The translations under genes and the position numbers were made by a program. A DNA stretch of 64,000 nucleotides from Tachypleus tridentatus. Lineage: Eukaryota; Arthropoda; Merostomata; Xiphosura; Limulidae. The notes under the pieces were generated by a model. The model was not told the DNA's origin. It saw nothing but the letters and a program-made list of their open reading frames with translations, and ran no database searches. Positions 41,001 to 63,561 of the stretch are shown here, piece by piece (within the stretch, counting starts at the first letter, position 1; each line of letters starts with the position of its first letter). Where the stretch lies: assembly GCF_004210375.1 (NCBI RefSeq), contig NC_134834.1, forward strand, positions 15,175,857 to 15,239,856, read 5' to 3'.

Positions 41001-44000
41001 AAGAGATTCAGTCCAAGTAACACTGAAACAATGTAAATAATGTGAACATTAACCAGTTAAATAATAAAAATAGTATAAACTTTTAATACTAAACAATGTA
41101 ACTAATGTAAACATACAGTAGTTAAATAATAAAAATAGTATCAACTTTTAATACTAAACAATGTAAATAATGTAAACATACAGTAGTTAAATAATAAAAA
41201 TAGTATAAACTTTTAATACTAAACAATGTAAATAATGTAAACATACACTAGTTAAATAATAAAAATAGTATAAACTTTTAATACTAAACAATGTAAATAA
41301 TGTAAACATACAGTAGTTAAATAATAAAAATAGTATCAACTTTTAATACTAAACAATGTAAATAATGTAAACATACAGTAGTTAAATAATAAAAATAGTA
41401 TAAACTTTTAATACTAAACAATGTAAATAATGTAAACATACACTAGTTAAATAATAAAAATAGTATAAACTTTTAATACTAAACAATGTAAATAATGTAA
41501 ACATACAGTAGTTAAATAAAAAAAAATAGTATAAACTTTTAATACTAAACAATATAAATAATGTGAATATACAGTAGTTAAATAATAAAAATAGTATAAA
41601 CTTTTAATACTAAACAATATAAATAATGTAAACATACAGTAGTTAAATAATAAAAATAGTATAAACTTTTAATACTAAACAATGTAAATAATGTAAACAT
41701 ACAGTAGTTAAATAAAAAAAATAGTATAAACTTTTAATACTAAACAATGTAAATAATGTAAACATACAGTAGTTAAATAAAAAAAATAGTATAAACTTTT
41801 AATACTAAACAATATAAATAATGTGAATATACACTAGTTAAATAATAAAAATAGTATCAACTTTTAATACTAAACAATGTAACTAATGTAAACATACAGT
41901 AGTTAAATAATAAAAATAGTATAAACTTTTAATACTAAACAATGAAAATAATGTAAACATACAGTAGTTAAATAATAAAAATAGTATAAACTTTTAATAC
42001 TAAACAATGTAACTAATGTAAACATACAGTAGTTAAATAATAAAAATAGTATAAACTTTTAATACTAAACAATGTAACTAATGTAAACATACAGTACTTA
42101 AATAATAAAAATAGTATCAACTTTTAATACCAAAAAATGTAAATAATGTAAACATACAGTAGTTAAATAATAAAAATAGTATAAACTTTTAATACTAAAC
42201 AATGTAAATAATGTAAACATACAGTAGTTAAATAATAAAAATAGTATCAACTTTTAATACCAAAAAATGTAAATAATGTAAACATACAGTACTTAAATAA
42301 TAAAAATAGTATCAACTTTTAATACCAAAAAATGTAAATAATGTAAACATACAGTAGTTAAATAATAAAAATAGTATAAACTTTTAATACTAAACAATGT
42401 AAATAATGTAAACATACACTAGTTAAATAATAAAAATAGTATAAACTTTTAATACTAAACAATGTAAATAATGTAAACATACAGTAGTTAAATAATAAAA
42501 ATAGTATAAACTTTTAATACTAAACAATGTAACTAATGTAAACATACACTAGTTAAATAACAAAAATAGTATAAACTTTTAATACTAAACAATGTAAATA
42601 ATGTAAACATACAGTAGTTAAATAATAAAAATAGTATAAACTTTTAATACTAAACAATGTAACTAATGTAAACATACAGTAGTTAAATAATAAAAATAGT
42701 ATCAACTTTTAATACTAAACAATGTAAATAATGTAAACATACAGTAGTTAAATAATAAAAATAGTATAAACTTTTAATACTAAACAATGTAACTAATGTA
42801 AACATACAGTAGTTAAATAATAAAAATAGTATCAACTTTTAATACTAAACAATGTAAATAATGTAAACATACAGTAGTTAAATAAAAAAAATAGTATAAA
42901 CTTTTAATACTAAACAATATAAATAATGTGAATATACACTAGTTAAATAATAAAAATAGTATAAACTTTTAATACTAAACAATATAAATAATGTAAACAT
43001 ACAGTAGTTAAATAATAAAAATAGTATAAACTTTTAATACTAAACAATGTAACTAATGTAAACATACAATAGTTAAATAATAAAAATAGTATAAACTTTT
43101 AATACTAAACAATGTAAATAATGTAAACATACAGAAGTTAAATAATAAAAATAGTATAAACTTTTAATACTAAACAATATAAATAATGTAAACATACAGA
43201 AGTTAAATAATAAAAATAGTATAAACTTTTAATACTAAACAATGTAACTAATGTAAACATACAGTAGTTAAATAATAAAAATAGTATAAACTTTTAATAC
43301 TAAACAATATAAATAATGTAAACATACAGAAGTTAAATAATAAAAATAGTATAAACTTTTAATACTAAACAATGTAACTAATGTAAACATACAGTAGTTA
43401 AATAATAAAAATAGTATAAACTTTTAATACTAAACAATGTATTTCGTTTTTTTTTTCCGTGTTTTCCATGACCATCTTCGTGGTTTCTCTTTGTTTTAAC
43501 AAAAGGCTACACAATGGGGTATCTGCCCTCTGTGCTTCGCGGGGAATCGAATACTGGATTTTAGAGTTGTATCCTATAAACGTCGTTCGTTTTGGAAACT
43601 GATTTAAAGTTCTGTTTGACTAATCAAAAATGATGTTCACTAAACATCAATATGGTCATTAAAAGTTAAATTTAAGTCAAACGGTAAATTCATTCTTCCC
43701 ACTTACCTCCTAGTGGCACTCTACGGACTTACAACACTAGAAACAGGGCTTCGATATCCGTGGTGGTCAGAGCCAGATAGTCCATTGTGTAGCTTTTTCC
43801 TTAACTACAAACAAAAAGAATCCTTCCCCTTTAAATGCAGAGAAATCATTTTATTCTTAAATTACAACAAAATCACTCTTAATGCCATGTTCGTGATGAC
43901 GAGAAACCCACTTGAAGTAAAAATGTATCTCAGGACGGCTGGTACGGGTATTAACACTTACTAATCAAGCAGAGAGAAATATTTCGACTTTTTTAGGTCA

Positions 44001-47000
44001 TGTTCAGGTTAACCTGAGATATATTTTTAACATCGTATGTACATTTTTGCCAGATTTTTAACACCTGTGAAATATCTTGTATGCGTTAAAGTTAAAACAA
44101 AAAATGAGGTCTGTAACAGACCTGTAACACAGTAACAGTTGATATTTATACTTAAAAGAAACGCCATAACTTACGTTTTAGTGTGAAAGAATAATAAACT
44201 CTCATTGGCTGTACAAGTCTGTGCTCACCTGTGTCGTCTATGACTGTTATCACGTGAAAAATAGCGAGAGTTATGGCAGCTGTATAAAGACCCTGTAAAC
44301 AAAAACAATGTTAAAATATTAGCCTATTGGATACGAGTTTAGCTCTCTGGTTAGGTATGTTTTAAGGTATTGCGTTCAATTTTGCGTGTCTTGGGAACTG
44401 AATTGAACCTTTCAAAACGGTTGAGAGGTGAGCTACTAAGATAACATCTGGGATGAAAGGTCATATAAAGACAAGTTAGGGTCAAAAGTGTTTTGTCTTC
44501 AAAAACAAGAAGAGTTGGGAAAGATTTGATTGTGTTATCGTAGAATACTAAAGTGATAGTGGTAGGAAACGTTTCCAGCTGAAACAGTTTTATTTGTATA
44601 GGAAGATGTTTGGCCTTTGGAATTGGTTGCACTCAGTTATGGGGGTTGCAGTTAGTTTAAAGGATTTTAAAGGAGAGCTCGATAGACATTTGAATTATAA
44701 GGGCTGACTTCAAGCTACTGGATGAACACACTAGATAGAGCAACAAGCGATAGAAACAAGAAGAAATGATAAACTAACGATAGTGGAATACGTATAGACT
44801 AAGACAAGGGTTCCCAGACCTGCGAAGCTTCACATTCGAAAGAAAAGAACTTTCTGGTGCTTTAATAATAAATACACTAAAAATAGAAACAATCGGTCAC
44901 TAACACCAGATAAAGTTTACTTCAAGCTTTCAGAATATAAATCTATAATAATATCAATATGTAAAGACAAATTTTTACTTCTACTTAGTTGTTCAAACAT
45001 TTCCACTTGTAAAATTTATATCAGTAAAAGTAGAGTGTGCTTATTTATTTATTAGTGGCTCGGATGGGCTTGTTTTTGTTCACAAAGTAGATCAATATTT
45101 GGAGTTATGGTCGTTACTTCTAAGCGCAAATCATCTTTAATATTAAGCCTGTTTCTAAATTTTGTCTTTGTAGCTGTATACAGTGAAAATGTTTATTCAC
45201 AAAGATATGTTGTTGGAAAACACATCCAGTTTTTCAAAACTCTGTTACGTATTTCAGGATATTCCATGGTCATTACTCTGTTACTTATTTCAGGATATTC
45301 CATGGTCATTACTCTGTTACGTATTTCAGGATATTCCATGGTCAAAACTCTGTTACGTATTTCAGGATATTCCATGGTCATTACTCTGTTACTTATTTCA
45401 GGATATTCCATGGTCATTACTCTGTTACTTATTTCAGGATATTCCATGGTCATTACTCTGTTACGTATTTCAGGATATTCCATGGTCAAAACTCTGTTAC
45501 GTATTTCAGGATATTCCATGGTCATTACTCTGTTACGTATTTCAGGATATTCCATGGTCATTACTCTGTTACTTATTTCAGGATATTCCATGGTCATTAC
45601 TCTGTTACGTATTTCAGGATATTCCATGGTCAAAACTCTGTTACGTATTTCAGGATATTCCATGGTCATTACTCTGTTACGTATTTCAGGATATTCCATG
45701 GTCATTACTCTGTTACTTATTTCAGGATATTCCATGGTCATTACTCTGTTACGTATTTCAGGATATTCCATGGTCAAAACTCTGTTACGTATTTCAGGAT
45801 ATTCCATGGTCATTACTCTGTTACGTATTTCAGGATATTCCATGGTCATTACTCTGTTACTTATTTCAGGATATTCAATGGTCATTACTCTGTTACGTAT
45901 TTCAGGATATTCCATGGTCATTACTCTGTTACTTATTTCAGGATATTCCATGGTCATTACTCTGTTACTTATTTCAGGATATTCCATGGTCATTACTCTG
46001 TTACGTATTTCAGGATATTCCATGGTCATTACTCTGTTACTTATTTCAGGATATTCCATGGTCATTACTCTGTTACTTATTTCAGGATATTCCATGGTCA
46101 TTACTCTGTTACGTATTTCAGGATATTCCATGGTCATTACTCTGTTACTTATTTCAGGATATTCCATGGTCATTACTCTGTTACGTATTTCAGGATATTC
46201 CATGATCATTACTCTGTTACTTATTTCAGGATATTCCATGGTCATTACTCTGTTACGTATTTCAGGATATTCCATGGTCATTACTCTGTTACTTATTTCA
46301 GGATATTCCATGGTCATTACTCTGTTACGTATTTCAGGATATTAAATGGTCAAAACTCTGTTACGTATTTCAGGATATTCCATGGTCATTACTCTGTTAC
46401 GTATTTCAGGATATTCCATGGTCATTACTCTGTTACGTATTTCAGGATATTCCATGGTCATTACTCTGTTACTTATTTCAGGATATTCAATGGTCATTAC
46501 TCTGTTACTTATTTCAGGATATTCCATGGTCATTACTCTGTTACTTATTTCAGGATATTCCATGGTCATTACTCTGTTACGTATTTCAGGATATTCCATG
46601 GTCATTACTCTGTTACTTATTTCAGGATATTCCATGGTCATTACTCTGTTACTTATTTCAGGATATTCCATGGTCATTACTCTGTTACTTATTTCAGGAT
46701 ATTCCATGGTCATTACTCTGTTACGTATTTCAGGATATTCCATGGTCATTACTCTGTTACTTATTTCAGGATATTCCATGGTCATTACTCTGTTACTTAT
46801 TTCAGGATATTCCATGGTCATTACTCTGTTACGTATTTCAGGATATTCCATGGTCATTACTCTGTTACGTATTTCAGGATATTCCATGGTCATTACTCTG
46901 TTACTTATTTCAGGATATTCCATGGTCATTACTCTGTTACGTATTTCAGGATATTCCATGGTCAAAACTCTGTTACGTATTTCAGGATATTCCATGGTCA

Positions 47001-50000
47001 TTACTCTGTTACGTATTTCAGGATATTCCATGGTCATTACTCTGTTACTTATTTCAGGATATTCCATGGTCATTACTCTGTTACGTATTTCAGGATATTC
47101 CATGGTCAAAACTCTGTTACGTATTTCAGGATATTCCATGGTCATTACTCTGTTACGTATTTCAGGATATTCCATGGTCATTACTCTGTTACTTATTTCA
47201 GGATATTCAATGGTCATTACTCTGTTACGTATTTCAGGATATTCCATGGTCATTACTCTGTTACTTATTTCAGGATATTCCATGGTCATTACTCTGTTAC
47301 TTATTTCAGGATATTCCATGGTCATTACTCTGTTACGTATTTCAGGATATTCCATGGTCATTACTCTGTTACTTATTTCAGGATATTCCATGGTCATTAC
47401 TCTGTTACGTATTTCAGGATATTCCATGGTCATTACTCTGGTCATTACGTATTTCAGGATATTCCATGGTCATTTCTGTTACTCTGTGTTACGTATTTCA
47501 GGATATTCCATGGTCATTACTCTGTTACTTATTTCAGGATATTCCATGGTCATTACTCTGTTACGTATTTCAGGATATTCCATGGTCAAAACTCTGTTAC
47601 GTATTTCAGGATATTCCATGGTCATTACTCTGTTACGTATTTCAGGATATTCCATGGTCATTACTCTGTTACTTATTTCAGGATATTCCATGGTCATTAC
47701 TCTGTTACGTATTTCAGGATATTCCATGGTCATTACTCTGTTACTTATTTCAGGATATTCCATGGTCATTACTCTGTTACTTATTTCAGGATATTCCATG
47801 GTCATTACTCTGTTACGTATTTCAGGATATTCCATGGTCATTACTCTGTTACTTATTTCAGGATATTCCATGGTCATTACTCTGTTACTTATTTCAGGAT
47901 ATTCCATGGTCATTACTCTGTTACGTATTTCAGGATATTTCATGGTCATTACTCTGTTACTTATTTCAGGATATTCCATGGTCATTACTCTGTTACGTAT
48001 TTCAGGATATTCCATGGTCATTACTCTGTTACGTATTTCAGGATATTCCATGGTCATTACTCTGTTACGTATTTCAGGATATTCCATGGTCATTCCTCTG
48101 TTACTTATTTCGGGATATTCCATGGTCATTACTCTGTTACGTATTTCAGGATATTCCATGGTCAAAACTCTGTTACGTATTTCAGGATATTCCATGGTCA
48201 TTACTCTGTTACGTATTTCAAGATATTCCATGGTCATTACTCTGTTACTTATTTCAGGATATTCCATGGTCATTACTCTGTTACTTATTTCAGGATATTC
48301 CATGGTCATTACTCTGTTACGTATTTCAGGATATTCCATGGTCATTTGAATCCAAAATTGTGTAATTTCTTTTTGCTGAAATTTTGTTTTTAGAGTAATG
48401 AGTTGAAATTTCTATTAGGCTGTTCTTTCTTTTTCAAAGACAATTGTTGGTATTTGTAGAGTCAACAAAGGGATTTTGAATCCAAAGTAAGTTTTCTAAA
48501 TGAGGAAGGAAGTACTCCCCAATAGTTGCACACAAATCAGATACATGCTGCAAGACTGAAATGTTTACATTTTCGCTTAAAGAAATTTCACATTTAAAAA
48601 AATCACTGAGATTTTCCAAGCGATCAAGTTCTTCCATCAGTGTACATTCACCACAAAGTTTTAGCTTATATTCTGAGCTTTGAAGTACGCTACCCCGGTA
48701 CCCTGCATTGTAGCATTCACTTCATTCCAGGTCGTCATGACCAGGTGGGTTAAGGTGTTCGACTCGTAATCTGAGAGTCGCGGGTTCGAATCCTCGTAGC
48801 ACCAAACATGCTCGCCCTTTCAGGCGTGGGAACGTTATAACGTGACGATCAATCCCACTATTCGTTGGTAAAAGAGTAGCCCAAGAGTTGGCGGTGGGTG
48901 GTGATGACTAGCTGCCTTTCCTCTTGTCTTACACTGTTAAATATGGGACGGCTAGCGCATGTAGACCTCGTGTAGCTTTGCGCGAAATTCAAAAGCAAAA
49001 GCACATCTGTAAGGTTGTGGGTTCTGGTTTTGTTTCAGAGTGATGCAGCAAATATAACCTTCAGCTGTTTAATCTTTGAGCTCCGTTTTCAGCGTTTCAA
49101 ATCCATTTCTTACGTCATCATATTTTTTTTAAATTTCCAATTCTTCTTTTTTCTCTTTTCATAAGTTACTAACAAGTGACGTCACACAAATCATCAAGAC
49201 GGAGATCTGGTGATTTTGTTTGCATTGCTTCTCATCTCCATCTGAAAGCTAATCTACTGATGTATTCGTTGTCAATATTAAAGTAATGAGGCACTCTCTG
49301 TTCAAAACGTAGGACCTTCAGTTATCGAGTCCATTAAAACTAATGAATATTCATATTTTGTTTTAAGTACACGTAGGCGGAAGATTACTAACGAATTTAA
49401 TTAAGTGAAACATCACATTAGATAATAAATAATTGAAACGTAACGCCAGCTGGCATCGAAGTCAGTAGGAAGTTTCTGAATTAATTGTATACGTACACAA
49501 AGAAACATATGTGTGTGTTCAGTGTACCATTTTCAGAAAGTTACTGTAGTCTCGTGCGGGCTAGTAATAATGGTTGTTTGGTCTTATTTTATCAAAATTT
49601 TACTGTGAAAAACAGCACTCGCCGCTTACCCAAAATGGACGACGCTATAAAGGATATCTGCTGTTGTGTGACTGGGTTGTCAAGTCGAAGGTAATCCTTG
49701 TGATAACGGATAACACTTAAGAGGTGCTACAGGGTTATCATATCGAAGATAACATGATGTAACACAAATTTTGTTCCTGGATAGTGTGTGTTATTTTTTA
49801 ATTACTTATGTTGTAAAAGTACAGAAAATAACCATTATTCCCTTCAAACTTTGCTTTTGTGACCTGGATAACGAAATTTAGAGATTAACCTATTTTTTAT
49901 GTAAAAACGGACAAATTTGCACATTTTCATTTACATAAGGTCTGAATAAAACAACATATGAATCAAGATTTACATGTATTTATACTAAAGTTATACAAAA

Positions 50001-53000
50001 ATGTTTAGAAGTGAGTAGTTTTTCGAGATTTGTGACTGTAATGTAAATCACTTTCACGTATCAGTCCCTAAATATAGTCTCCCATCATGTTTTCGTTATA
50101 CGCTCCTTGATAGCGGCGTTCAAAGTCTAGTATATCTTAGTGGAATCGCCCGCCTTGTTCCTATGAGTATGCTTCCACGCCCTCCTTGAATTTATCAAGA
50201 TGAGCGTCTAGGATATGATCTTTCAGGGACATCCTGCATCCCATTTTGCCGTAGTTCTTCACCAGAGCCTCAACCAGTTCCACATAATTTTCAGCCTTGT
50301 GATTACCTAAGAAGCTCCGAAGCTTTTTTTCCTTCCTGTTGAGCTTCTTGGGGAATTCTGTGCACTCCAGGATCTTCTTTATTTGTGGTCCAACGAAGAC
50401 ACCAGCTTTGAATTTTTTCTCAGGCAGCTTAGGGAAAAAAGTCTCAAAGGTACTTGAAGGCTGCAGACTCCTTATCAAGAGCTGTGACAAATTGTTTCAT
50501 AAGTCCCAGTTTTATGTGCAATGGTGAGAACAACACCTTCTGGAGGCCCATTAGTGGCTCACACTTGAAATTATGCCTCCACCACAGGGAACGCGGTCCG
50601 TTGTGGCCAGTGCTTCCTGTTGTAGTGTGTTGCGGTGTACCTGCTGTCCCAAAGACAAAGATAACAGGGAAACTTGGTAAAGCCTCCGTGAGACCCATCA
50701 GGAATGCCACCATTTTGAAGTCTCTGATAACCTCCCAGTCATATTCATCATACTTCAAGACTTCTAGCAAGGTCTTGACGCTGTTGTATTCCTCTTTGAG
50801 GTGCACCGAATGAGCCAGAGGAAGAGACAGGTACTTATTCCTGTTATGGAGCAGCACAGCTTTGAGTCTTCTGGATGAGCTATCATTGTAGAGTCGCCAC
50901 TTGTTCGGGTTACAGGCAATTCCAATTGCCTCGCACAGACCGGATACATTGTGGCAGGAGCAGAGTCCATCTTGATGGGTGAAGAAGCTTGAAAAATGTC
51001 GGTGATGCTTCCTCTGACTTGTACACTTTCATTCTTGAAAAGTCTTGTAAGTTTTACAACATTCTAGAAAGTTCTTGAACATTCTCGTAAGTTCTACAAC
51101 ATTCTAGAAAGTTCTTGAAAATTCTAGTAAGTTCTACAACATTCTAGAAAGTTTTTGAAAATTCTTGTAAGTTCGAGAAAATTCTCTATCAGCTACTCAG
51201 CACTGAATCTACCTGGAATGTTCTGGAAAATTGGTAAATTTGAAAATTTTATTACCCAGATCACAAAAACAAAGTTTTAAGAGAAAAATAGGTCTTTTCC
51301 ATTTACTTCAGGCATAAGCAACTGGGAAATAACACTTTCTGTCCAGGAACAAGAAAATGTATTTTTTTTTTTTTTACAAAGTGTTATTAACTTTTACAAC
51401 CTGACACGTAAAACTGAAAATCAGACACCGTACGTAGAATCTTCGACCAACCGAACACCACGATACTTCCAAATTTAAATTTGGCGTTTTGCCAAATGTC
51501 TCTTTTGTAAAGGACCTTGAAGTTAGGGCTTTTGAAACGGTCGCGAGATCGAAATCTCGCCGAACATGTTCTTCTTTTCGATTCTGTCCCCCCTCCAGTG
51601 GCTCAGAGTATGACTGCAGACTTAAAACGCTAGAAACCGAGTTTCAATACCAGTGGTGGGCAGAGAACAAGTGGCCTATTGTGTAACTTTAGGCTTAATT
51701 TTCAACAAACAAATAAATATTTCTAACTCCTTCATTTCTTTTAAAATGTTTTCTTGTTACGCCGCTTGTTCTTCCAAATACGGTTAATAGTGTCCAGAAT
51801 TGTTTTTCAAAAACTGGATAGACTACAGGCTTAGCATTAAAGGTCAGGAAAGAAAGCACTTATTTTAATTAATAAAGACAGATTCCTTACAAAATGTCTC
51901 TCACTGGTACATCGGCAAGTCTAAGGATTTACAACGCTAAAACCAGCAGTTAGATTCCCTTCAATAGACACAGCAGATAGCCTGATATGATTTAGTTATA
52001 AGAAAAACGCATTCTCATGTTACAGCAAATAAAGCAGAGGCAAAACAAGATATAGGCAATCTGACGACGAAAGACATTTTACAACAAATATAGAAAAGAT
52101 AAAACAAGAAGTAATTGTCGTTAAGACTGAACAGACTCAGACATGGCTTTTAATAGTTTCAATAGTAACTGTACATTATATGACAGCTTTTGCTTAAACT
52201 ATCAGGTCGTTGTTCGAAAATAATTGTCTATAATTAAGAACGATCCTAAGACTTAAGCAGAACTCTACCCAATTCAGAACCGCTAACTGTTAGAAAATAA
52301 GGCAGATATAACCTACAGTTAACCGAATAGCGGTGTGATTAACTTTCTCATTTATAAAATGCTCACATCCGGAGAACATTTTCAGTGCATGTGGAACCTA
52401 GGACTTTTCTACTTTGCACGCAACCACAAGATCACCCTGTAAACCCCACTGTAAACTTTAATTTTTGACCTTAATATCTAGATCTTCTGATGATTTTACT
52501 GAATAAAGATACATAATACAAGAGACGGGAATTAAATTATTGAATACACGTTTTAAGAATGTAATATTGATTTTGATTAAAAAACAGTTTGTAGAAAATA
52601 TTCCTGAAACAACTTATTTGGAGTGAGATGTAATACAATAGATATTTTAAAAAGTCACTATTACGTTTATCATTAGCGTTAAAACAGCTCGTATAAAAAT
52701 GTGGTTCAGAATTCTAGACACATACACGTACCGTTTATTTCGTGACACTAGTGATTATAGGTAGTAATTCACTAACATGTCATCAAATCATCAAAAATAA
52801 TTGTACAAAATAAATAACCTAAAATTCTTAAACAACCTATAAGTGGCTTTGAAATGGAGAGCTGAGGATATTTGTCAATACAGGAACGAAGTCTGTATAT
52901 AAAAACAATTGTAATTAGACCTAATATGTATATAACAACAATTGTAGTTAGGCCTAATATTTATATAACAACAATTATAGCTAGGCCTAATATGTATATA

Positions 53001-56000
53001 ACAACAATTGTAGTTAGGCCTAATATTTATATAACAACAATTATAGCTAGGCCTAATATGTATATAACAACAATTATAGTTAGGCTTAGTATATATAACA
53101 ACAATTGTAGTTAGGCCTAATATCTACAAGGTGGCCCGTAAGTCCCTACCCATCCATATATTGTGTTTAAACAATGTTACAATACTAATGATGAGTTGAA
53201 GGCTATGTTGAGGAAAATGTCTCACAGAACATGGCGTCGCATAATATTATGCAGAGAGAATGAGGGACAGTACACAGATACACTGGATATAGAAGATATA
53301 TGGATGGGAGTTACGGGCCACCATATATATAACAACAATTATAGCTAGGCCTATTATGTATATAACAACAAATATAGTTTGGCTTAGTATATATATATAT
53401 ATATAACAACAATTGTTGTTAGGCTTAACACTGTTTTATGAAAAGTATTTACATAGGTATAATAGATCCAGTAGCTAACATACATAATGCTCCATTTTCT
53501 TGTTGAAACAAAAAAAAAACACAGCTGCACTACATCAAATAAAATCTGGGTTTCTAATTTAAATTTTCAGTTAAATTTTTTAAGGTACTCTTCCAAATGA
53601 ATTTTCGGAATATTCTTTAAATATTTACAAATCCTCCTGTTTGAAAACCGACAAAGAATTCAACCCTTTCTCGTCAACAATGTTCAATTATATGATGAAA
53701 AAACTCCATGAGCATTTATTTTGTTAGACGAAATAAAGTATTAATCTGATCAATATAAGAACTGTCTTTACTTTCCATCAACTTTTCAAGAATGACTTTA
53801 ATATATGTCTGATAGAATTAAAAACAAATCTGGGAAGGCCAAATAATGAAAATTAATTAATTATTAAACGAACATTTAAATTTAGTTTAGGAATATTATG
53901 TACTCAACATTATTAGATTTTTTTTTCCACATAGTTGTTACGAACTGGCTTCAACCTACTCTGAGCTCAGAAAGTGTAAACTTTTGTAGAAAAATGAGCA
54001 GGCCCGGCATGGCCAGGTGGATTAAGACGTTCGACTCGTAATCTGAGGGTCGCGGGTTCGAATCCCCGTCGCATCAAACATGCTCGCCCTTTCAGCTGTG
54101 GGGGCGTTATAATGTTACGGTCAATCCCACTATTCGTTGGTAAAAGAGTAGCCGAAGAGCCGGCGGTGGGTGGTGATGAATAGCTGCCTTTCCTCTGGTC
54201 TTACACTGCTAAATTATGGACGGCTAGCGCAGATAGGCCTCGAGTAGCTTGCGCGAAATTCAAAACAAGCTAACAAATACATCATATGGTGACGAAACGA
54301 CACGTAAACATCACGTGTGTACATTACATGACGGGAGAACTGTGTAAATTGTACATAGTATCCACAACCGGTGTAATTATACACATATGATTTGAGATAC
54401 GCATGACACAATATAACAACCATGTTTATATGATGTGGGAGTTTGTTTTCTGAAGAAGAAAGGTCCGCCTTTCGCTCGGGTTATGGGGTTTTTATTTTAG
54501 TTCTGCGTGTGTGTGTGTTTTCTTACAACAAAGCCACATCGGGCTATCTGCTGAGTCTACCGAAAGGAATCGAATCCCTGATTTTAGTACTTTATTTCTA
54601 TCAAGATTTCGTGAACCTACATGTTTTTTTAACACCGTGAATGTATATCAAAGTGATATTGTGAGTATATCTTTGTTATATAATACCAAAGCTAATTATA
54701 CCTGACCTTATACGATGTATATTTTCACATTGCATAGCAACTACATATATCAAGCATGATATCATATAATATTCGCAGAAGAACGGGAGGTATCAGAACT
54801 ACATTTTGAAATTGCTTGGCGTTTATTAAGCAGTTTGATTACACCTAATAGTGATCACGTTTGTAATAGTGACACAGAAATATATCATAACGATATATTC
54901 ACATCGGAAATTCATAATTTCGAAAACAGGAATATCTCTTCAACTTAATGCCATTGTAAAAAAAAATAATATGGATCAGTTTGGAGCGCCAGACTATCAA
55001 GAAAGAGAGACCTGCAACAAGTTGTGGCCTAGCCGAAGAAAACAACACAATCAAGAACTGTCCGAAAATGAGGTCAACATTGTATGGGTTCACCAAACTC
55101 AGGTCATTTCTCCCGTTCAGTCGTAGTATGTCTCAAACAATTGGAGAAAAATAAACAAACGGGTAGTCACGCTGCTCCACATGAGAGCATATCAGTCAAT
55201 TCGCCAAACAAGTCACCTATACATTTCTGTGTGACCAGACGGTCCAAAAGACCACTAGGGAAGCGTTATCCTCGTAAACGGGATGGATCATGGAAAATTA
55301 TCAGGAAAAAGTTTGTTTTTTATAACAGTTTTTTTTTACAACACCCTCTGATAGACATGCCTGACCACCACGTTGTGGTCATCTGTTTACCTCACAGTCT
55401 CTTTTACTTGTATTGTTCTTTTTTTCAAGAAACCTCTTCCTTATTCAACTATATTTACGATTCGAAAACTCAATTATTTCGTCTTCTGTTCATACGTAGG
55501 TTTTGGTTAATCACATTTGTGCCAAAAACATACGCTGTTTTGTGTTGCCATATTTCTGTATTATTCTTCGTATTACATAGTTGTGGTAACGTCACTTTGT
55601 TCATAGGAAATCCATTATCTAACAGCTTCACGCAGTAATTTCCAGGATATCCAACATAACTTGGGGTAGGTCAAGAATATTTTATTGGTGTGTATTGTCA
55701 CAGATAACTCGATTTTATTAAAGAATCTGCGCCGTGGTGAATAAACTAGCGAAAACAGTTCGCGGGAACTCTCGCCTTTCATAGAAATATTTATGTCTCA
55801 GTTTTCCTCGTCTAGATCATAACTTTATCGCTTGATCTTATGACCAATTTCCTCACTGATTATGTTCAAAGACAGTAATTTTCTACTTACAATAAACTCT
55901 TATGTTAGTTTGTTTTTGAACTTCGCGCAAAGCTACTCGAGGGCTATCTGTGCTAGCCGTCCCTAATTTAGCAATGTAAGACGAGAGGGAAGGCAGCTAG

Positions 56001-57895
56001 TCATCACCACCCACCGCCAACTCTTGGGCTACTCTTTTACCAACGAATAGTGGGATTTACCGTCACATTATAACGCCTCCACGGCTGAAAGGGCGAGCAT
56101 GTTTGGCGCGACGGGGATGCGAACCCGCGACCCTCAGATTACGAGTCGCACGCCTTAACACGCTTGGCCATGCCAGGCCTGCTTATGTTAGTACCAAACC
56201 AGATTTTTCACAGTGACATCACTTCAAGAAACAAAAGAACATAAGATGATTATATGTGCGACACGCGCTCACCATTGTATCACAGAAAACCAAATCCACT
56301 GACTTGTTAGACCGAAAAAAAAGTTACTTTTAAAGATGTTAAAACTTCTTTCAAATAATCTATACACACACACATTTTTGGAGTATTTCTTACAACTTAC
56401 ACACAGACACGATGTATATTACATTATAAAAAAAACATATAAAACAGCAATATGCAACATGACATCTTGGACATTCAGTTACTAATCTGTATTTAGGATT
56501 AGTGGACCTACATTATAAAAAACAAAAACATATATATGGACATTCACCAAGTGGACCTACATTATAAAAAACATATATATGCCACCAAGGTACATAGGAC
56601 ATTCAGCTACGAATCTTTATTTAGGGTTAGTGGACCTACATTATAAAAAACATATATATACCACCAAGGTACATAGGACATTCAGCTACGAATCTTTATT
56701 TAGGGTTAGTGGACCTACATAATAAAATCTATATAAATACGACATTTTCATAATATTTAAAACACTTAGTATAATTATCTGTCTATTTCTTACTCATTTT
56801 ACCATTTCTTACATTTACGTCATACTGTGATACACTGTATCACAGTGTGCTAATGTAGAGTTTTCAGCTAACAGTTGTTTATGTAAAAAATACACATATT
56901 AATATAAGCTAACAATAACAGTATGTTGTTGACAATAATATAAGTTTAGTTTAATGCAACTTATGGTGTGTCGCCTCATTGGCCAGTTTTTTCTAGGTAG
57001 AGTTAATAGTACAATAAAGTAAAGTTAAGCGTTTTATTTTTTATTAAAGAAAATAATAAACAATTACTACAACACATATATGTGTATCCGTGTATTACGT
57101 CACTTCAGATAACTCACTTTTCACTCAAGAGAGAGGTGAGGAACAAATTATTTATTAAAGAAGAGTTGGGGAGAAACGCTATCGCAAACGGTGAAGTAAA
57201 ACATTAAAGTTTATAAAATATCTTCTGTTTAGAAACTGTAAAATGTGTTATTTTACACACAGTAACTTAAATTACTCCAGCCTGATAAAGCAGCCATTTT
57301 CTACCCAAGTATCGTAAGCTCCATCTAGTTTCTTAAACCAACAAAATTACTAATTTAAACAAAATAAATGATGGCACGTGAAAAGGTTATGACGTTCGAT
57401 CCTAGTTAAGTACTACTGGTGAACAAGTTGTGTTTATACAAACATTATAAACGTTAAAGTTTACAACTAAGTATTACTGTGGAACAAGTTATGTTTATAC
57501 AAACATTATAAACGTTAAAATTTACAACTAAGTATTACTGAGGAATAAGTTATGTTTATACAAACATTATAAACGTTAAAGTTTAGAACTAAGTATTACT
57601 GGGGAACAAATTATGTTTTTATAAACATTATAAACGTTAAAGCTTAGAACTAAGTATGACTGGTGAACAAATTATGTTTTTATAAACATTATAAACGTCA
57701 AAGTTTAGAACTAAGTATGACTGGTGAACAAGTTATATTTTTATAAACATTATAAACGTTACAGTTTAGTAACTAAATGTATACGAGGGAAGAACAAGTC
57801 ACCTTTTCATGTTTACTTACCAAACTGTATATTCCAGCTGCAAAACTACCAGTTCTCAACGAGTGACCACAGCAACATGAAGTAACGATAGCCAT
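31776..57895 (-). CDS. Four-helix small membrane protein, seven exons (LAPTM4/DUF4728-like)
   Basis: Coding exons on the - strand are 57895-57821, 44292-44229, 40983-40937, 38880-38788, 38073-38014, 36585-36508 and 32063-31776 (75, 64, 47, 93, 60, 78 and 288 nt; total 705 = 234 residues plus stop). Every junction is GT-AG, and all phases agree (0, 1, 0, 0, 0, 0). Residues 1-16 form a Cys-rich cytosolic start (SCCCGHSLRTG). Four hydrophobic segments follow at about 17-43, 47-62, 66-91 and 95-122, then SQYQEYLAGRGRQE. A 95-residue polar tail, rich in Ser, Pro and Asp, ends the protein. The CCC-x-LRTG start, the four helices and a Tyr-rich segment after helix 4 resemble lysosomal LAPTM4 and insect DUF4728 proteins. 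That assignment is inference and the function is unknown. An in-frame TAA at 57908-57910 precedes the ATG. Introns are filled with minisatellites and transposon debris. Confidence 0.8.
32380..32537 (-). mobile_element. Type-3 SINE
   Basis: In antisense the head reads CCAGTGGTTAGGGTCCTGG then ACTGTGGATCCAG. The body GCGTTATAAAAATGATGGTC followed by TTGCCCAAG is a diverged form of the type-1 body. Confidence 0.6.
32880..33725 (-). pseudogene. Tc1/mariner transposase fossil
   Basis: The - strand reads, with stops and frame breaks, MKQIHIARTVGTNR, SRRTLTRRLTRQGYF, HRRHCVSWSRKY, SAVHAWAAIHHNKKTTLHIL, NVSGISHLERYFCHML and INNLIHSMPRRLAAIIDER. These are the ordered blocks of Tc1-like transposases, from HTH region to C-terminus. 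The catalytic DDE region is mutated. It lies in the intron before the last exon... of the membrane-protein gene (exons 6 and 7). Confidence 0.8.
33949..34221 (+). mobile_element. Type-1 tRNA SINE
   Basis: Full length; head CTGGCATGGCCTAGCGCG. The B box is altered to GGGTTCGCGCCCG. Confidence 0.9.
34925..35100 (-). mobile_element. Very old type-1 SINE
   Basis: TCGTCGCAAAGCTATACAATAG, then GCAGTTAGTTAGTCAT and GGACTACTTTTGTCTAAC keep the antisense order but are heavily mutated. Confidence 0.5.
35433..36125. repeat. Minisatellite, 29-bp unit, ~23 copies
   Basis: The unit reads TTAGGATTATAAGACAGG, then TTCTCTGTTAG, with many variants (AGAGAGCTTCTCTC forms). It is in the intron before membrane-protein exon 7. 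Confidence 0.9.
36508..36585 (-). CDS. Membrane-protein gene exon 6
   Basis: The acceptor is ttttcattgcag and the donor is TCGG|gtgagt; length is 78 nt, phase 0. It encodes VYCLLCVVSQYQEY then LAGRGRQETVVR, the end of helix 4 and the cytosolic turn. Confidence 0.8.
36908..37024 (-). mobile_element. Type-2 SINE
   Basis: Antisense copy: AAAGCTACACAATGGGCTATC, then CCACTACGGGTATCGAAATTC and GCTGAGCCACTAGG. Confidence 0.75.
37598..37980 (+). mobile_element. Type-2 SINE split by a type-1 SINE
   Basis: The left part 37598-37696 runs from TCTTCTAGTGGTTCAGTAG to CCCACTGTGTAT. The right part resumes at 37958 with ACCGTGTAGCTTTGCG. The insert is the antisense type-1 SINE at 37697-37957, and ACTGTGTA/ACCGTGTA may be its target duplication. 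Confidence 0.65.
37697..37957 (-). mobile_element. Type-1 tRNA SINE nested in a type-2 SINE
   Basis: Antisense copy, tail side first; its head has lost part of the A-box region. It ends about 57 bp from membrane-protein exon 5. Confidence 0.88.
38014..38073 (-). CDS. Membrane-protein gene exon 5
   Basis: The acceptor is atattccttacag and the donor is AAAT|gtgagt; length is 60 nt, phase 0. It encodes KFHLLLVVYVSVDLLICALN, most of helix 4. Confidence 0.75.
38788..38880 (-). CDS. Membrane-protein gene exon 4
   Basis: The acceptor is tggttttcag and the donor is GCT|gtgagt; length is 93 nt, phase 0. It encodes DSRMFLLPWILCTPV then TTLTHMTLSLYLFCDA, helix 3. Confidence 0.75.
38948..39975. repeat. 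Minisatellite, 63-bp unit, 16 copies
   Basis: The unit, 21 codons, reads in + as KQLRTYSVLIYY then YNVYLSNPE, open from 39012 to 40073. Variant units recur in the same order (HSNSKK, LSNSDK, NPEK, NPQK, LNNSEK), showing a higher-order duplication of five to seven units. It is in the intron between membrane-protein exons 3 and 4. Confidence 0.93.
40505..40698 (-). repeat. 40-bp tandem repeat with microexon-like units, 5 copies
   Basis: In the sense of the membrane-protein gene (-), each unit reads TCTTGTTACAG, CCAATCACAGTGCAG, GTGAGTTTATCT. That is a good acceptor, 15 nt (Pro-Ile-Thr-Val-Gln), then a consensus donor. Three units (15-mers at 40688-40674, 40648-40634 and 40608-40594) are intact; two lack the donor. 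It starts about 250 nt after exon 3, in a phase-0 intron. Confidence 0.85.
40937..40983 (-). CDS. Membrane-protein gene exon 3
   Basis: The acceptor is cttgtatgttcag and the donor is TGTG|gtgagt; length is 47 nt. Read in the phase set by exon 2 it gives GLCVPSSVLLLVGLCV, a clean hydrophobic helix. The other frames are less consistent. Confidence 0.72.
41031..43440. repeat. AT-rich satellite-like array, 65-bp unit, ~37 copies
   Basis: The unit reads AATGTAAATAATGTAAACAT, ACAGTAGTTAAATAATAAAA, ATAGTATAAACTTTTAATAC, TAAAC. It is about 2.4 kb long, very uniform, full of stops in all frames, and fills most of the intron between membrane-protein exons 2 and 3. Confidence 0.96.
43492..43590 (-). 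mobile_element. Type-2 SINE
   Basis: Antisense: AAGGCTACACAATGGGGTATC, then GCGGGGAATCGAATACTGG and TAGAGTTGTATCC; starts close to the end of the 65-bp array. Confidence 0.65.
43700..43815 (+). mobile_element. Type-2 SINE
   Basis: CCTCCTAGTGGCACTCTACG, GGGCTTCGATATCCGTGG, then CAGATAGTCCATTGTGTAGC. Confidence 0.75.
43890..44015 (-). mobile_element. Second Penelope-type terminal family, degenerate
   Basis: It shares GACGAGAAACCCACTTGAAGT, the ACGGCTGG/GGGTATTAACAC block and TTTCGAC...GGTCAT...CAGGTTAAC with the other copies of this family. It lies 400 nt from membrane-protein exon 2, inside the following intron. Confidence 0.45.
44229..44292 (-). CDS. Membrane-protein gene exon 2
   Basis: The acceptor is ttttgtttacag and the donor is ACAG|gtgagc. 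It encodes GLYTAAITLAIFHVI then TVIDDT, completing helix 1, and leaves one base for a Gly codon shared with exon 3. Confidence 0.75.
44440..44710 (+). mobile_element. LINE reverse-transcriptase C-terminal fragment
   Basis: The + strand reads KSWERFDCVIVEY then, after breaks, GVAVSLKDFKGELDRHLN, resembling the WNxLP...SVxxFKxRLDRxL end of CR1/Jockey-type reverse transcriptases. It is decayed and short. Confidence 0.4.
45236..48344. repeat. Minisatellite, 36-bp unit, ~86 copies
   Basis: The unit reads TTACTCTGTTACGTATTTC, then AGGATATTCCATGGTCA. It stays open for long stretches in three frames: LLRISGYSMVIT and CYVFQDIPWSLL on +, MTMEYPEIRNRV on -. Two variable positions (ACGTA/ACTTA and CATTAC/CAAAAC) recur in a four-unit pattern. 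Irregular joins occur at about 46343 and 47440-47490. It lies in intron 1 of the membrane-protein gene. The variants change amino acids, which argues against a protein role. Confidence 0.97.
48361..48727 (-). pseudogene. hAT/ZBED-type transposase fragment
   Basis: The - strand reads WNEVNATMQGTG, a break, then MEELDRLENLSDFF, VNISVLQHVSDLCATIGEYF and LENLLWIQNPFVDST. This order (LNELNxxLQG, then SFL..LENL...PF) is seen in hAT-derived ZBED proteins. A SINE abuts its 5' side at 48728. Confidence 0.5.
48728..49000 (+). mobile_element. Type-1 tRNA SINE
   Basis: Full length; head GTCATGACCAGGTGGGTTAAGG, intact B box. Confidence 0.9.
49001..50004. other. Intron 1 spacer
   Basis: No gene or repeat recognised between the SINE and the pseudogene; may hold further hAT debris next to 48727. 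Confidence 0.4.
50005..50990 (-). pseudogene. Broken copy of a widespread invertebrate transposon-like gene
   Basis: Reading the - strand from about 50990 to a TAA at 50005-50007 gives pieces of one protein in several frames: VIRDFKMVAFLMGL, SPLHIKLGLMKQFVTALDK, AGVFVGPQIKKILECTEF, GCRMSLKDHILDAHLDKFK, then DILDFERRYQG and NENMMGDYI. I recognise this as an uncharacterised family found in many copies in arthropod and other animal genomes, probably carried by a mobile element; I cannot name its function. It is broken: there are frame changes near 50470 and 50800-50860, an internal deletion after LNRKEK, and two in-frame stops replacing probable Gln and Trp codons near 50139 and 50067. It sits in intron 1 of the membrane-protein gene, with a heat-shock-element cluster just upstream of its 5' end. 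Confidence 0.7.
51030..51228. promoter_or_regulatory. Tandem heat-shock-element cluster
   Basis: A roughly 40-bp unit repeated about four times contains alternating TTC and GAA triplets at 5-bp spacing, the binding pattern of trimeric heat-shock factor. Runs of five units are at 51062-51084 and 51102-51124; 51142-51164 has one defect; three units are at 51172-51184. Because the repeat length is a multiple of five, all stay in one register. A separate GAAnnTTCnnGAA is at 51216-51228. Confidence 0.7.
51590..51705 (+). mobile_element. Type-2 SINE
   Basis: CCCTCCAGTGGCTCAGAG, GAGTTTCAATACCAGTGG, then GCCTATTGTGTAACTTTAGG and an AAACAAAT tail. Confidence 0.78.
51900..52010 (+). mobile_element. 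Degenerate type-2 SINE
   Basis: GGATTTACAACGCTAAAACC, TTAGATTCCCTTCAATAG, then CAGCAGATAGCCTGATATG. Confidence 0.6.
52906..53435. repeat. 30-bp AT-rich minisatellite split by a transposon
   Basis: The unit reads AGTTAGGCCTAATATGTAT, then ATAACAACAATTGT. About seven units lie before 53127 and about three or four after 53325, with the TIR element between them. Confidence 0.85.
53127..53325. mobile_element. Small mariner/Tc1-type element inside a minisatellite
   Basis: The inverted ends GGTGGCCCGTAAGTCCC (from 53130) and the complement of GGGAGTTACGGGCCACC (to 53322) lie 3 nt inside flanking TA dinucleotides (53125-53126 and 53326-53327). Internally, a + strand reading gives LKAMLRKMSHRTWRRIILC, possibly a transposase C-terminal remnant. 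It splits a 30-bp tandem repeat. Confidence 0.6.
54002..54275 (+). mobile_element. Type-1 tRNA SINE
   Basis: Full length with head GGCCCGGCATGGCCAGGTGG and a perfect B box; one of the best-preserved copies. Confidence 0.92.
54280..55898. other. Intron 1 spacer with unrecognised frames
   Basis: The + frame 55084-55638 begins after a TTCTCCCGTTCAG acceptor-like site and includes a basic stretch (VTRRSKRPLGKRYPRKRDG), then low-complexity hydrophobic sequence. It is unrecognised and probably not coding. Confidence 0.35.
54515..54590 (-). mobile_element. Type-2 SINE variant fragment
   Basis: CTTACAACAAAGCCACATCGG, GCTATCTGCTGAGTCTACCG, then GAATCGAATCCCTGATTTTAG in antisense; related to 23437-23545. 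Confidence 0.65.
55910..56181 (-). mobile_element. Type-1 tRNA SINE with perfect target duplication
   Basis: Antisense full-length copy. CTTATGTTAGT flanks it exactly at 55899-55909 and 56182-56192 (11 bp), showing target-primed insertion that is recent or unmutated. Confidence 0.92.
56497..56728. repeat. Tandem repeat, ~75-bp unit, about 3 copies
   Basis: Each unit has GTGGACCTACATTATAAAAA, CATATATAT and GGACATTCAGCTACGAATC; the first unit is shortened. Confidence 0.8.
57405..57775. repeat. Minisatellite, ~60-bp unit, 6 copies
   Basis: The unit contains AACTAAGTATTACTGG, GAACAAGTTATGTTTAT and ACAAACATTATAAACGTTAA. It ends about 45 bp from the donor of membrane-protein exon 1, inside intron 1. 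Confidence 0.9.
57821..57895 (-). CDS. Membrane-protein gene exon 1 (start)
   Basis: It encodes 25 residues, MAIVTSCCCGHSLRTG then SFAAGIYSL, ending TTTG|gtaagt in phase 0. ATG at 57895-57893 is in context gctATGG, with an in-frame stop just upstream. The Cys-Cys-Cys/Arg-Thr-Gly pattern followed by a helix is typical of LAPTM/DUF4728 N-termini. Confidence 0.75.
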
Positions 57896-58049
57896 AGCGT
57901 GAGTAAATTATCCTTTTAAAAGCTGGGTGAACATTGTCATCTCTCTGTCACTCGCCTCAATGACTTTCGAGTTAACTTCTGTAAACAACTCAGCTGATAA
58001 AAGGTCTTTGTTGCAGTAGACGCTTGAAACTATCTCGTGTCATCACTGG

Positions 58050-58078
58050 TTGATCACGAACGATACTCTCGTGATCAA
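58050..58078. promoter_or_regulatory. 10-bp inverted repeat upstream of the membrane-protein gene
   Basis: TTGATCACGA and its exact complement TCGTGATCAA flank a 9-nt spacer, about 155-185 nt upstream of the start codon at 57895. It could be a dimer-binding site in the promoter or a hairpin in the 5' UTR. No factor is assigned. Confidence 0.35.
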
Positions 58079-58479
58079 ATACTGTTACTTCACCGAAACT
58101 AAATAACGGATGAAAAATTTATAACTGGTAAAGTCTTCCTGCAGGTGGCTCTGCTATCTCAGAACGTGAAACAGTTCATAACATGCGCTGACCTAATAAT
58201 ATTCACCCCCACTTACTCTGACGTATTAATCATAAAATAAATTGCAAAAGAATAATAGATATTACTTATACTAATGATTTGTCATAGAGTAGCGTGTACC
58301 TGGTAAACACAAGGTAGGAACGTACTTGCCAAATACAATATGGCACTTAAACTGATAAGGAAAACAGCTTTATTTATTTTCTCTTTATACGTAGAGAAAC
58401 AAGAATAGCGATCGAAGTGATCAAACTTGAGGTACTTCCGTTTCGTTTTGATCTAAAATCGCGTGAAAGAGTACCTGGC

Positions 58480-58630
58480 GCCCTCTACATTCTTACACTC
58501 AATTACACAACCGCCTTCAAACATGTGATCAGCTTTCTTTGTGAACCTGACGATGGCCAAAGAAAGTCGAAACGTTGTTCGCTCTTCTACATGGTGTTTT
58601 CTCTACCCATACCAGCCGTTTTTACATATA
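58480..58630 (+). mobile_element. Solo Penelope-type terminal region with hammerhead-like core
   Basis: It is closely similar to the arms at 10658-10818 and 11244-11395, from CGCCCTCTACATT to the AGCCGTTTTTACATA segment. The hammerhead-like core spans 58541-58582 (GTGAAC, CTGACGA, stem II GGCC opposite AGTC, GAAA, CGTT, GTTCGC). No reverse-transcriptase sequence is attached. Confidence 0.6.
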
Positions 58631-59040
58631 TACCTGAGCTACAGCTGTCATGAGACAGTTTGAAGAATTCATGTTTTGAATCAGGTATCGTGTTTAATGG
58701 AAATGAGTTTATTGTTCACGTTAATTATGCGTATTGCATAACAAAAACACCTTAATGACTTATGTCACTTGTACACGTAATAATACGTTGTTTATAGTCA
58801 AGTGGCTTCTAATAAGACACTTCTGTATTTACATGACTTAATCGGTTGATTACAATTAAGCCCAAAGGTACACAACATTAACTGTTGGAGAAACAAGATT
58901 ACCCGAAATATACCTGTTGCACATCAATTTCACCTGATACTATATTAATACATCTCTGTTTATCATTTCATGTCTGTTTCTAAACTATTTAGCATTTTAT
59001 TTGAGACAAATCTTTGTTGTGCATTGTTTTATTCATAAAA

Positions 59041-59575
59041 AGTATTCCATTTACAAACAAAAGCTATCCCTGAGTATATTCCATTTACAAACAAGAGCTG
59101 TCCCTGAGTATATTCCATTTACAAACAAGAGCTGTCCCTAAGTATATTCCATTTACAAACAAGAGCTGTCCCTGAGTATATTCCATTTACAAACAAGAGC
59201 TGTCCCTAAGTATATTTCGTTTAAAAACAAGAGCTGTCCCTGGGTATATTCCATTTACAAACAAGAGCTGTCCCTAAGTATATTCCATTTACAAACAAGA
59301 GCTGTCCCTGAGTATATTCCATTTACAAACAAGAGCTGTCCCTAAGTATATTTCGTTTAAAAACAAGAGCTGTCCCTGGGTATATTTCATTTAAAAACAA
59401 GACCTGTCCCTGGGTATATTCCATTTACAAACAAGAGTTATCTCTGAGTATATTCCATTTACAAACAAGAGCTGTTCCTGAGTATATTCCATTTACAAAC
59501 AAGAGCTGTCCCTGGATATACAAACAAGAGCTGTCCCTGGGTATACAAACAAGAGCTGTCCCTGGGTATACAGTA
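59041..59575. repeat. Minisatellite, 34-bp unit, ~16 copies
   Basis: The unit reads GTATATTCCATTTACAAAC, then AAGAGCTGTCCCTGA; the last units are shortened. Confidence 0.92.
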
Positions 59576-59579
59576 TTCC

Positions 59580-60857
59580 AACTTGCAGCGCTTATTTCAA
59601 ACATTACGGAACAACAATCGCTAATTTGAGGTCAACAACAAGTGACCTTATCTCAATGTTGTAATTGTGTTCTCCGCCAAGGCTGATTTTTGTTTTTTAT
59701 CAAAGGCATGATAAAAGTAGTTTTATTAGTCTGAAAAATTCCACAAAAATATTAGTTTAAGTTTTATCCCCTTTTACGAGACCCATTAGAGTTTGAAGTT
59801 AACTATATTCTGTAAATTTCGTTCAAAGTATGTTCGAAGAAGATGAGATGACTCATAAAACAAAATCACCAAACTGTGTAAACGTAATAAAACTAAATAC
59901 CAATTGAGACTAGCACAGGATTTCCTTAATCTTTCATAGGGGTGCTTAATGTTTACTGTCACTCGGCCCGTACCGATATACTACAGTGTGATTAATATAG
60001 GTTATGACTTTACTGTTGTGTACTCTCATCGTGTCCCTAGATGAGGGTTAATAATCGTATGCTTGATCCCTTCTAGCCTCGATCACAGAGGCTTTACAGT
60101 TACCACACCATTCTGTACGTCAGTCTGCATCTGGTGAAGGCCGATTATTTCAACACAATCGGAATTGTAGGTAATTAACACCCAATAAGAATTAAGTAGA
60201 TACTGTTCGTCTAACACACAACTTTAACTCTTAAATTAAAAATGTTTTTCAGTCTTGTTACCTATGTAGCTGTGTCAATTCTGGTACTGAAGATATAAAT
60301 TTGTGAATGTTAACTAACATTAACTGATATCGTTATTACTAAAATCTAGTTTTTGTAATTAGTGAAATGACCACATTGTGGAAAATTTGAAAGTAAATCG
60401 TACCTACTTTACGATAAGAAAAGTGTTTTTAGTAGGTAAACTGAAGTAAACTTTAGATATTTATTGAAACAATTGACATGAAAAGTCGCATCTTATAAAA
60501 GTTCGAATAACCTTTACTAGTTATGTTATCTCTTGTTAAATAAAAATAAATAGTTTAAATAGGAATAAAAAGTTTGGAAGCATAACCTAAAATTAGTCAT
60601 GTGCCAGTCCCTGTAAAACTTCATTTTTGACAATACACGTCTGTACTGCGGTGAAAACAGACAATAGGGGCATCTCTAATCTTTCGATGTAGCAACTATA
60701 TGATAACAAAGTAACTTTGTTTCAGATCAGACGTCAACATTTCCAAAAAAAAAACCCACAACATATTTTTTCTAATTGTTTTTTTTCCTTTTGCATCGTT
60801 CTAATAACATACCTCGAGTAATATTAAGTTAAAAGACGAAAAATGCTCCACTAGTTA
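59580..60857. other. Intergenic, nothing recognised
   Basis: No exon, SINE or tandem repeat was seen. Confidence 0.45.
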
Positions 60858-61005
60858 ATGTATTCTAAAGACGGCTGGTAAGGGTATTACAACTTTAATT
60901 AAAAAAAGAAGAGAACAAGAGAAGAGGACCTAAGTAACGTTGTTCTGTGCTTTATTTTAATTAAAGTTTCAATACCCGAACAAGCCGTCTTGAGAATACA
61001 TTTTT
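60858..61005. mobile_element. Palindromic terminal segment of the second Penelope-type family
   Basis: Two arms of about 47 bp (60858-60905 and 60957-61004) are inverted copies containing AAGACGGCTGG/GGGTATT and CTTTAATTAAAA. They flank about 50 bp holding GACCTAAG and AACGTTGTTCT, pieces of a hammerhead-like core. Confidence 0.45.
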
Positions 61006-61089
61006 GGAAGCTCTTGATTATTGTAGAACATTCACAGTGAAAATTGAAAGTATGTTTGACTATGTTTTATATGTGACTGATTTATTTTG

Positions 61090-61432
61090 TTTAGAATCAA
61101 GTACAACGCTACCCAATGGGCTATCTGTGCTCTGCCCACCACAGGTATCAAAACCCGGATTTTAGCGTTATAAGCTTTCAGACTTGCCACTGACCCATGG
61201 GAGGGTGGGCGCATACCTCAAGAACAAAGAAAGTCAAGGTTTAATTTTGGTGAGTTTGTTTACTGAGACCATGTGCTACCATCCCTAATTTCGACTACAA
61301 GGAAGTAAATTGACTGGTAACACCCGCCGCCAGCTGACAAATAGCGGAACTGGCCGTAATATTATAGCATAGCACGGCTGAAAAAGTGACATGTTCAATA
61401 CACTTGGCAAGGCACGGCCAGGTGGGTTAAGG
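61090..61432 (-). repeat. Left arm of a long inverted duplication
   Basis: It contains, in order, an antisense type-2 SINE (61090-61205), a unique segment (GAACAAAGAAAGTCAAGG), an old antisense type-1 body (61270-61395) and the first bases of the next SINE head. The same block is inverted at 62384-62718 with shared private mutations such as AGCATAGCACGGCT. Confidence 0.85.
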
Positions 61433-62273: not shown

Positions 62274-62383
62274 TACGATTTACGTATCTTCATGAAATTT
62301 GACAAGCTACAGTAAACATTATAAGCCTTTTGTAAAGAAGAATAAGAATGTCTAACCAAGTATTTTTATTAAAAATTAATGTT

Positions 62384-63486: not shown

Positions 63487-63561
63487 ATTTCAAACCGTCA
63501 CTTTTCATCAGTTTTCTGAACTCAGTTATTATTATTTAAAGAAATGAAGAAGAAGAAGAAA

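Follow-up and report, generated by a model that had tools for sequence, protein, structure and literature searches.

A dense ladder of heat-shock elements (HSEs) lies in the Tachypleus tridentatus window, i.e., the whole 64,000-nucleotide stretch of NC_134834.1 analysed here. We assign a probability of roughly 0.8 to the reading that this array is the upstream activating part of a heat-shock promoter belonging to a family of terminal inverted repeat (TIR) DNA transposons, a family whose sequence is present in thousands of copies in the genome. The copy in the window is a broken relic, in which the HSE sites are kept and the rest of the promoter is lost.

The array occupies positions 51032-51185 (minus strand), where TRF reports 3.8 copies of a 40-bp unit with 90% matches and sub-periods of 10 and 20 bp, and a slot count finds TTC or GAA every 5 bp. 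Its 31 alternating slots, at strict 5-bp register, hold 21 perfect triplets, slightly above the 18 claimed by the original prediction, which had described tandemly amplified HSEs with 5-bp spacing. Along the 10-bp ladder TTC is perfect in 13 of 16 units and GAA in 8 of 16, with perfect five-part chains at 51062 and 51102 and a three-part chain at 51172. The additional perfect three-part element that had been predicted at 51216 is present as well; a chain scan places it at 51216-51228 (minus strand), on the inner edge of the right TIR, where it reads GAATGTTCTGGAA with all units perfect (TTCCAGAACATTC in gene sense). As an HSE ladder the window array is far above chance: the best 31-slot (155-bp) score elsewhere within the 64-kb window is 6, with one further three-part chain at 18338, and 20 first-order Markov simulations of the window gave best 31-slot scores of 4-6 and chains never longer than three. 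A 40-bp repeat, however, amplifies its content whatever that content is, so the triplet count alone overstates the significance.

The composition of the ladder is consistent with an HSF target. At least three inverted nGAAn units at 5-bp spacing, which mark such a target, occur both in the array and in the family consensus. A T follows the TTC slot in 15 of the 16 units of the window array, a feature shared with the Drosophila HSF consensus, AGAAN NTTCT AGAAN, as given in PMC3315474. The same source reports that HSEs with a 5-bp gap are bound by the HSFs of five species including Drosophila, although not by C. elegans HSF, and a ladder with some imperfect slots is thus still a plausible HSF target.

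The array belongs to a 1,631-bp DNA transposon copy at 49753-51383, with its gene on the minus strand, delimited by its TIRs and by comparison with 20 other copies. Self-alignment identified TIR cores at 49771-49896 and 51227-51352, which are inverted, ungapped over 126 bp and 72% identical (E 2e-22), and the family comparison extends them to a left TIR at 49753-49896 (plus strand) and a right TIR at 51227-51383 (minus strand); the array lies a short way inside the right TIR core. Comparison of flanks with the 20 other copies fixes the family ends as CACTATGTAAC...GTTACATAGTG, from which the window copy differs by two mismatches at each end, and in 18 of the 21 copies, window included, both ends lie within two mismatches of these sequences. 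The family target site is TWA (TAA or TTA), 3 bp long. Of the 18 copies whose ends are clear (the other three being excluded, and the pairs L017/L018 and L011/L012 being non-independent since they share flanks), 10 have identical 3-bp flanks, vs. 3 of 162 at offset control positions. The flanks of the window copy are unequal, with TAA on the left (49750-49752) and TTA on the right (51384-51386). Host flanks are nearly equal between L011 and L012 (~0.5 Mb apart) and between L017 and L018 (~0.09 Mb apart), which are probably segmental duplications rather than separate insertions.

From its TIRs and TWA duplications, the element is a TIR DNA transposon of the cut-and-paste type. Helitrons, by comparison, are rolling-circle elements without TIRs or target duplication that insert at AT and have TC and CTRR ends, and Helitron membership was rejected on the presence of TIRs and 3-bp target duplications. 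The ends, CACTA...TAGTG, and the 3-bp target duplication resemble those of the CACTA/EnSpm (CMC) superfamily, of which both are traits; in contrast to that superfamily, the gene of this element has no Pfam match, although it may still be an En/Spm-type homologue. PIF/Harbinger elements, too, favour TWA targets. We file the family provisionally among the TIR DNA transposons, as one with ends of CACTA type and without assignment to a superfamily.

The promoter of the family is best seen in copies that are less damaged than that of the window. Across the 21 copies read, the order in gene sense, where kept, is the right TIR, TTCCAGAACATTCCAG, the HSE array, AGAACTTTCCATAGTA, an (AT)n TATA stretch, CACTTCAGTTTAGTTCTAG, a short leader and GAGATGGCATCAAGAAGC, which includes the start codon. 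Another 20 promoters were sampled from 100 listed junction matches (rows 1, 6, ... 51, then 55, 60, ... 95), all of them exact and on contigs C1 and C2. HSEs stand upstream of TATA in 20/20 of these junction-sampled copies, mostly with the start codon to follow. A recognisable initiator (at most three mismatches) is found in 19/20, the start-codon stretch (at most three mismatches) in 17/20, and the 13-base family form of the three-part HSE (at most one mismatch) in 17/20; L049 has sequence other than TIR above its three-part HSE. The consensus of the 20 has 14 of 18 slots perfect, followed by TATATATA, TCAGTT 30 bp on, and ATG, and among the 19 copies whose initiator can be recognised, 14 have it 29-34 bp from TATA. 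The core promoter thus lies at the right distance from the HSEs in the family, whereas TATA, initiator and ATG are all lost in the window copy. Taken together, the HSE array, TATA and initiator make the family promoter look like a complete heat-shock promoter, as far as sequence can indicate.

The HSE density of these promoters is distinct from that of their surroundings, with best 18-slot scores of 9-15 in the 21 elements and 7-14 in the 20 junction-sampled promoters, vs. a maximum of 5 among 40 host flanks. In 19 copies the upper anchor could be placed, with five mismatches or fewer in 20 bases (4-5 in four of these copies), and the arrays measure 47 (six copies), 57, 66, 67 (three), 77 (three), 87 (four) and 117 bp. 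In 18 of the 19 the lengths differ by multiples of 10 bp, and slippage in 10-bp units keeps the spacing and register for HSF. The window array is longer than any of these 19. The 20 promoter copies diverge from their consensus by a mean of 7.0% (2.3-17.6%); since matches with an exact junction headed the list, the true divergence is probably higher. Conservation among copies does not differ between triplet columns and spacer columns (0.947 vs. 0.932, p = 0.38), which gives no sign of post-insertion selection on the triplets, as would be expected if the insertions are dead.

The abundance of the family was assessed by searching the genome assembly (2.17 Gb, 205 contigs). With up to two mismatches, a 25-base pattern spanning the HSE-TATA junction (last HSE, linker and TATA) was found at 2,762 places, compared with 4 for the reversed pattern, and the 22-base start-codon sequence at 2,772 places, compared with 0 for its control. 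The two signals also occur together: on contig C1, 18 of 88 listed exact start-codon matches have an exact HSE-TATA match 90-109 bp upstream, i.e., 20% vs. the 16% expected with the junction in every copy and 7% of sites decayed, and in the reverse view 18 of 57 listed junction matches have the start codon, 32% vs. 20% expected. A query with the array gave 1,044 first-look candidates, of which 40 were scored, window included, all at E 2e-51 or better. In 20/20 array-selected copies (the 20 highest-scoring of the 39 other scored places), the left part, array and right part occur in the same order with the ends inverted, and in L024 the outermost left bases are without match.

Copies were thus selected mainly by array likeness (20) or by an exact HSE-TATA junction (20), and only five by the gene, from a gene query with 4,231 candidates, of which 40 were scored. 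These five bear on the concern, raised in the original prediction as a refuting case, that other family copies might lack the array. Array, TATA and ATG are all present in three of the five (L070, L072 and L073, L070 being without the initiator stretch and L072 having a decayed last HSE), while L071 keeps a partial array and L069 has lost the array and kept the three-part HSE. The array losses in L069 and L071 are internal deletions that also took the 5′ end of the gene.

The array had been placed immediately 5′ of a transposon-like gene remnant, and this is right, the gene being on the minus strand. The remnant consists of a first open piece at 50444-51028 (minus strand, 194 aa, N-terminally truncated), defined from ORFs and copy comparison and present in part or whole in other copies, and a second open piece at 50161-50496 (minus strand, 111 aa), defined from ORFs, beyond which stop-interrupted coding continues to about 50013. 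The gene is broken in all six copies read for coding. Pfam gave no match above cut-off for the two window gene pieces or for eight pieces from other copies; weak matches to interferon, DeaD, nicotinic receptor, double zinc ribbon, RAG1 and GRAS, like a DUF2009 match at E 0.002, were dismissed as chance, those from Pfam all falling under the curated cut-offs. A single-sequence fold of one gene piece was uninformative (mean pLDDT 31), and viral contigs, scanned twice for related genes, gave 9 and 16 pattern matches, none confirmed. The gene is probably the transposase of the element, a label that follows from its place inside the TIRs because Pfam gives it no family.

How the window copy came to lose its promoter is apparent from two longer ones, L027 and L028. 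Both follow the window to 51021, contain ~0.9 kb extra and resume matching at the array, which puts an internal-deletion junction at 51022-51031 (minus strand; gene-sense reading), and in L009 and L015 the extra stretch holds the N-terminal coding part, MASRSCKHS.... In the window copy the array runs directly into mid-gene, the deletion having taken the TATA box and initiator together with the leader, the start codon and the N-terminal part of the coding sequence; several other copies are also deleted, with varying breakpoints. The proposal of a heat-inducible mobile element finds good support in the promoter anatomy of the family (a TIR element with the array upstream of the gene) and fails for the window copy, the promoter of which is deleted. 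With TATA, initiator, start codon and N-terminus gone, this copy can no longer work as a heat-inducible element, and its role would be at most that of a putative HSF-binding site.

The heat-shock genes of the host provide a reference within the same genome. The HSF DNA-binding domain has five matches in the genome, four of which are exon pieces with HSF1-type helices, e.g., KYFKHNNMASFIRQLN; the best-scoring match, L037, is more divergent. An hsp70 tandem cluster is found on contig C8, arranged near 132.8 and 133.8 Mb as two tandem blocks with ~8.8-kb spacing, and the three hsp70 promoters examined are nearly identical to one another. All three (L066-L068) have TTCGAGAAACTTCGAGAA 13 bp before TATAAATA, together with a distal GAATTTTCCCGAA. 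They share with the transposon promoter an HSE chain followed by TATA, plus a distal three-part HSE, and by this layout the host heat-shock genes rely on the same type of promoter as the transposon. The two differ in density: the hsp70 promoters contain chains of four and three perfect units with a best 18-slot score of 5, vs. 7-14 in the transposon promoters and 14 in their consensus, and the hsp70 88-bp density score is no higher than that of the best host flank. The transposon promoter is thus HSE-denser than the host hsp70 promoters examined.

From this arrangement of sites we infer HSF binding, heat induction and past stress-coupled mobility, and it is probable that heat stress once switched the element on. 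In the proposed mechanism, the ancestral HSF-binding block would have comprised the three-part HSE and an array of alternating nTTCnnGAAn units, situated ~8 bp upstream of TATA. When the host is stressed by heat or damaged proteins, HSF trimers would occupy the array and activate the gene, with transcription starting ~30 bp past TATA at the TCAGTT initiator and producing the gene of the element, probably its transposase; mobility would thereby be tied to host stress. The array could lengthen or shorten in 10-bp steps without loss of the HSF register. In the window copy, a dead derivative, the array grew to 3.8 forty-bp units and the core promoter and N-terminus were deleted.

Many plant CACTA elements have subterminal transposase-binding sites that are needed for transposition, and the array could likewise be such a block, required in cis, with its HSE likeness incidental. 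It does lie just inside one TIR, is repeated and phased at 10 bp, and the element ends are CACTA-like. However, short derivatives of 476-482 bp retain both end regions without array or gene (2-3 of 18 slots) in 7/7 cases sampled, these seven being the best left-end matches, and the left-end query (window 49753-50010) returned 3,075 first-look candidates in the genome, of which the 40 scored are 95-100% identical. Mobility therefore seems not to need the array, which goes with the 5′ end of the gene instead; of the arguments against a transposase-binding role, this is the strongest. In addition, the family array is on the 5′ side of the gene, adjoining TATA and initiator, and HSF would suit both the spacing of its TTC/GAA triplets and the T that follows TTC. 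The idea that mobility requires the array as a transposase-binding block was rejected on the seven sampled array-less derivatives, and we consider the incidental-likeness reading as a whole quite unlikely. The derivatives themselves (L030-L036) represent a numerous 476-482-bp MITE of the same element, in which the left 354 bp is joined to the right TIR; the seven sampled are 96-97% identical to the left end of the window copy, and in L035 the outermost right bases match poorly.

A minisatellite without function might also account for the array, if a 10-bp or 40-bp unit that happened to contain TTCnnGAA was amplified in a minisatellite-rich genome. The 42 tandem-repeat rows in the window, the lack of triplet conservation above that of the spacers and the excess length of the window array over the 19 measured copies (47-117 bp) are all compatible with this. 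Yet the short-array family consensus already has 14 of 18 perfect slots and a separate three-part HSE, the spacing from the block to TATA, initiator and ATG is that of a promoter, more than 2,700 occurrences each were counted for the junction and the start codon, and the hsp70 promoters of the genome are laid out similarly; chance amplification is accordingly quite unlikely as well. Still harder to credit is the view that the window array now serves a host membrane-protein gene as a heat-responsive enhancer within its intron. The HSE triplets do persist in the window copy, and HSEs in C. elegans Helitrons are described in PMC6927752 as conferring a heat response on neighbouring genes. The window copy, though, is one of thousands and has its core promoter deleted, and six-frame translation shows 51353-64000 to be free of Pfam domains and 31100-45100 to contain a Tc3 transposase domain only. 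The original prediction had located the array in intron 1 of a membrane-protein gene, and no Pfam-recognisable membrane protein was found in the stretches scanned; nor was support found for the proposed intronic enhancer.

The reading of the array as part of the element's own heat-shock promoter can be compared with other heat-shock-linked mobile elements, a further example of which is ONSEN of Arabidopsis. The closest likeness is to the Caenorhabditis Helitrons Helitron1_CE and Helitron7_CB, for which PMC6927752 reports clustered HSEs in the promoter that drives the element's Rep-Helicase, with 14 HSEs in one C. elegans copy and 85 upstream of a C. briggsae one, binding of these HSEs by HSF-1, and heat induction of the Rep-Helicase genes. 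As here, HSE clusters, consistent with tandem overlapping HSEs, stand before the mobility gene and are spread over the genome by the element (PMC6927752); unlike them, the present family is a TIR element with a 3-bp target duplication, in a different animal. By analogy, the family may work like HSE-bearing Helitrons without being one. DIRS-1 of Dictyostelium is likewise a mobile element with a heat-shock promoter, located in its inverted terminal repeats (Zuker et al. 1984, as cited in PMC2685390), and DIRS1-like elements are tyrosine-recombinase retrotransposons according to PMC3266345, whereas the present HSE array borders one TIR of a DNA transposon on its inner side. In titles and abstract openings from the open-access literature searched, no animal TIR DNA transposon with an HSE-array promoter was found.

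If the promoter reading is correct, a cut-and-paste transposon has independently put its own gene under the host heat-shock factor, the same trick as in C. elegans Helitrons and Dictyostelium DIRS-1. It is doubtful, though conceivable, that the more than 2,700 seeded HSE-plus-TATA promoters continue to act in present-day animals as a network under HSF control; if they did, a heat shock would set off transcription from hundreds to thousands of scattered sites, and nearby genes would be rewired or HSF soaked up. With its ~2,700 HSE-TATA junctions, this genome would offer a direct test, outside nematode models, of whether transposons rewire or buffer the heat-shock response.

Other parts of the window were characterized by Pfam scans at E 0.01, which yielded no domain in six frames of 51353-64000, only the Tc3-type domain in six frames of 31100-45100, and no domain in the three plus frames of 21840-30120; exons that lack a Pfam domain would escape these frame scans. 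Membership of the array in the intron of a host gene was rejected on the lack of Pfam support in these stretches. The Tc3-type transposase helix-turn-helix domain (33337-33633, minus strand, E 9.7e-10) belongs to an unrelated element. The only cellular domain in the six ORFs scanned is an endonuclease/exonuclease/phosphatase domain in the ORF at 20983-21831 (plus strand, E 1.2e-17), which we take to be probably a nocturnin-like exon. Large minisatellites of up to 86 copies lie at 45239-48346, 41018-43441, 30126-31026 and 38946-39970, with units of 36, 65, 36 and 63 bp, respectively; long open frames in the three that start at 30126, 38946 and 45239 are spurious products of the repeats.
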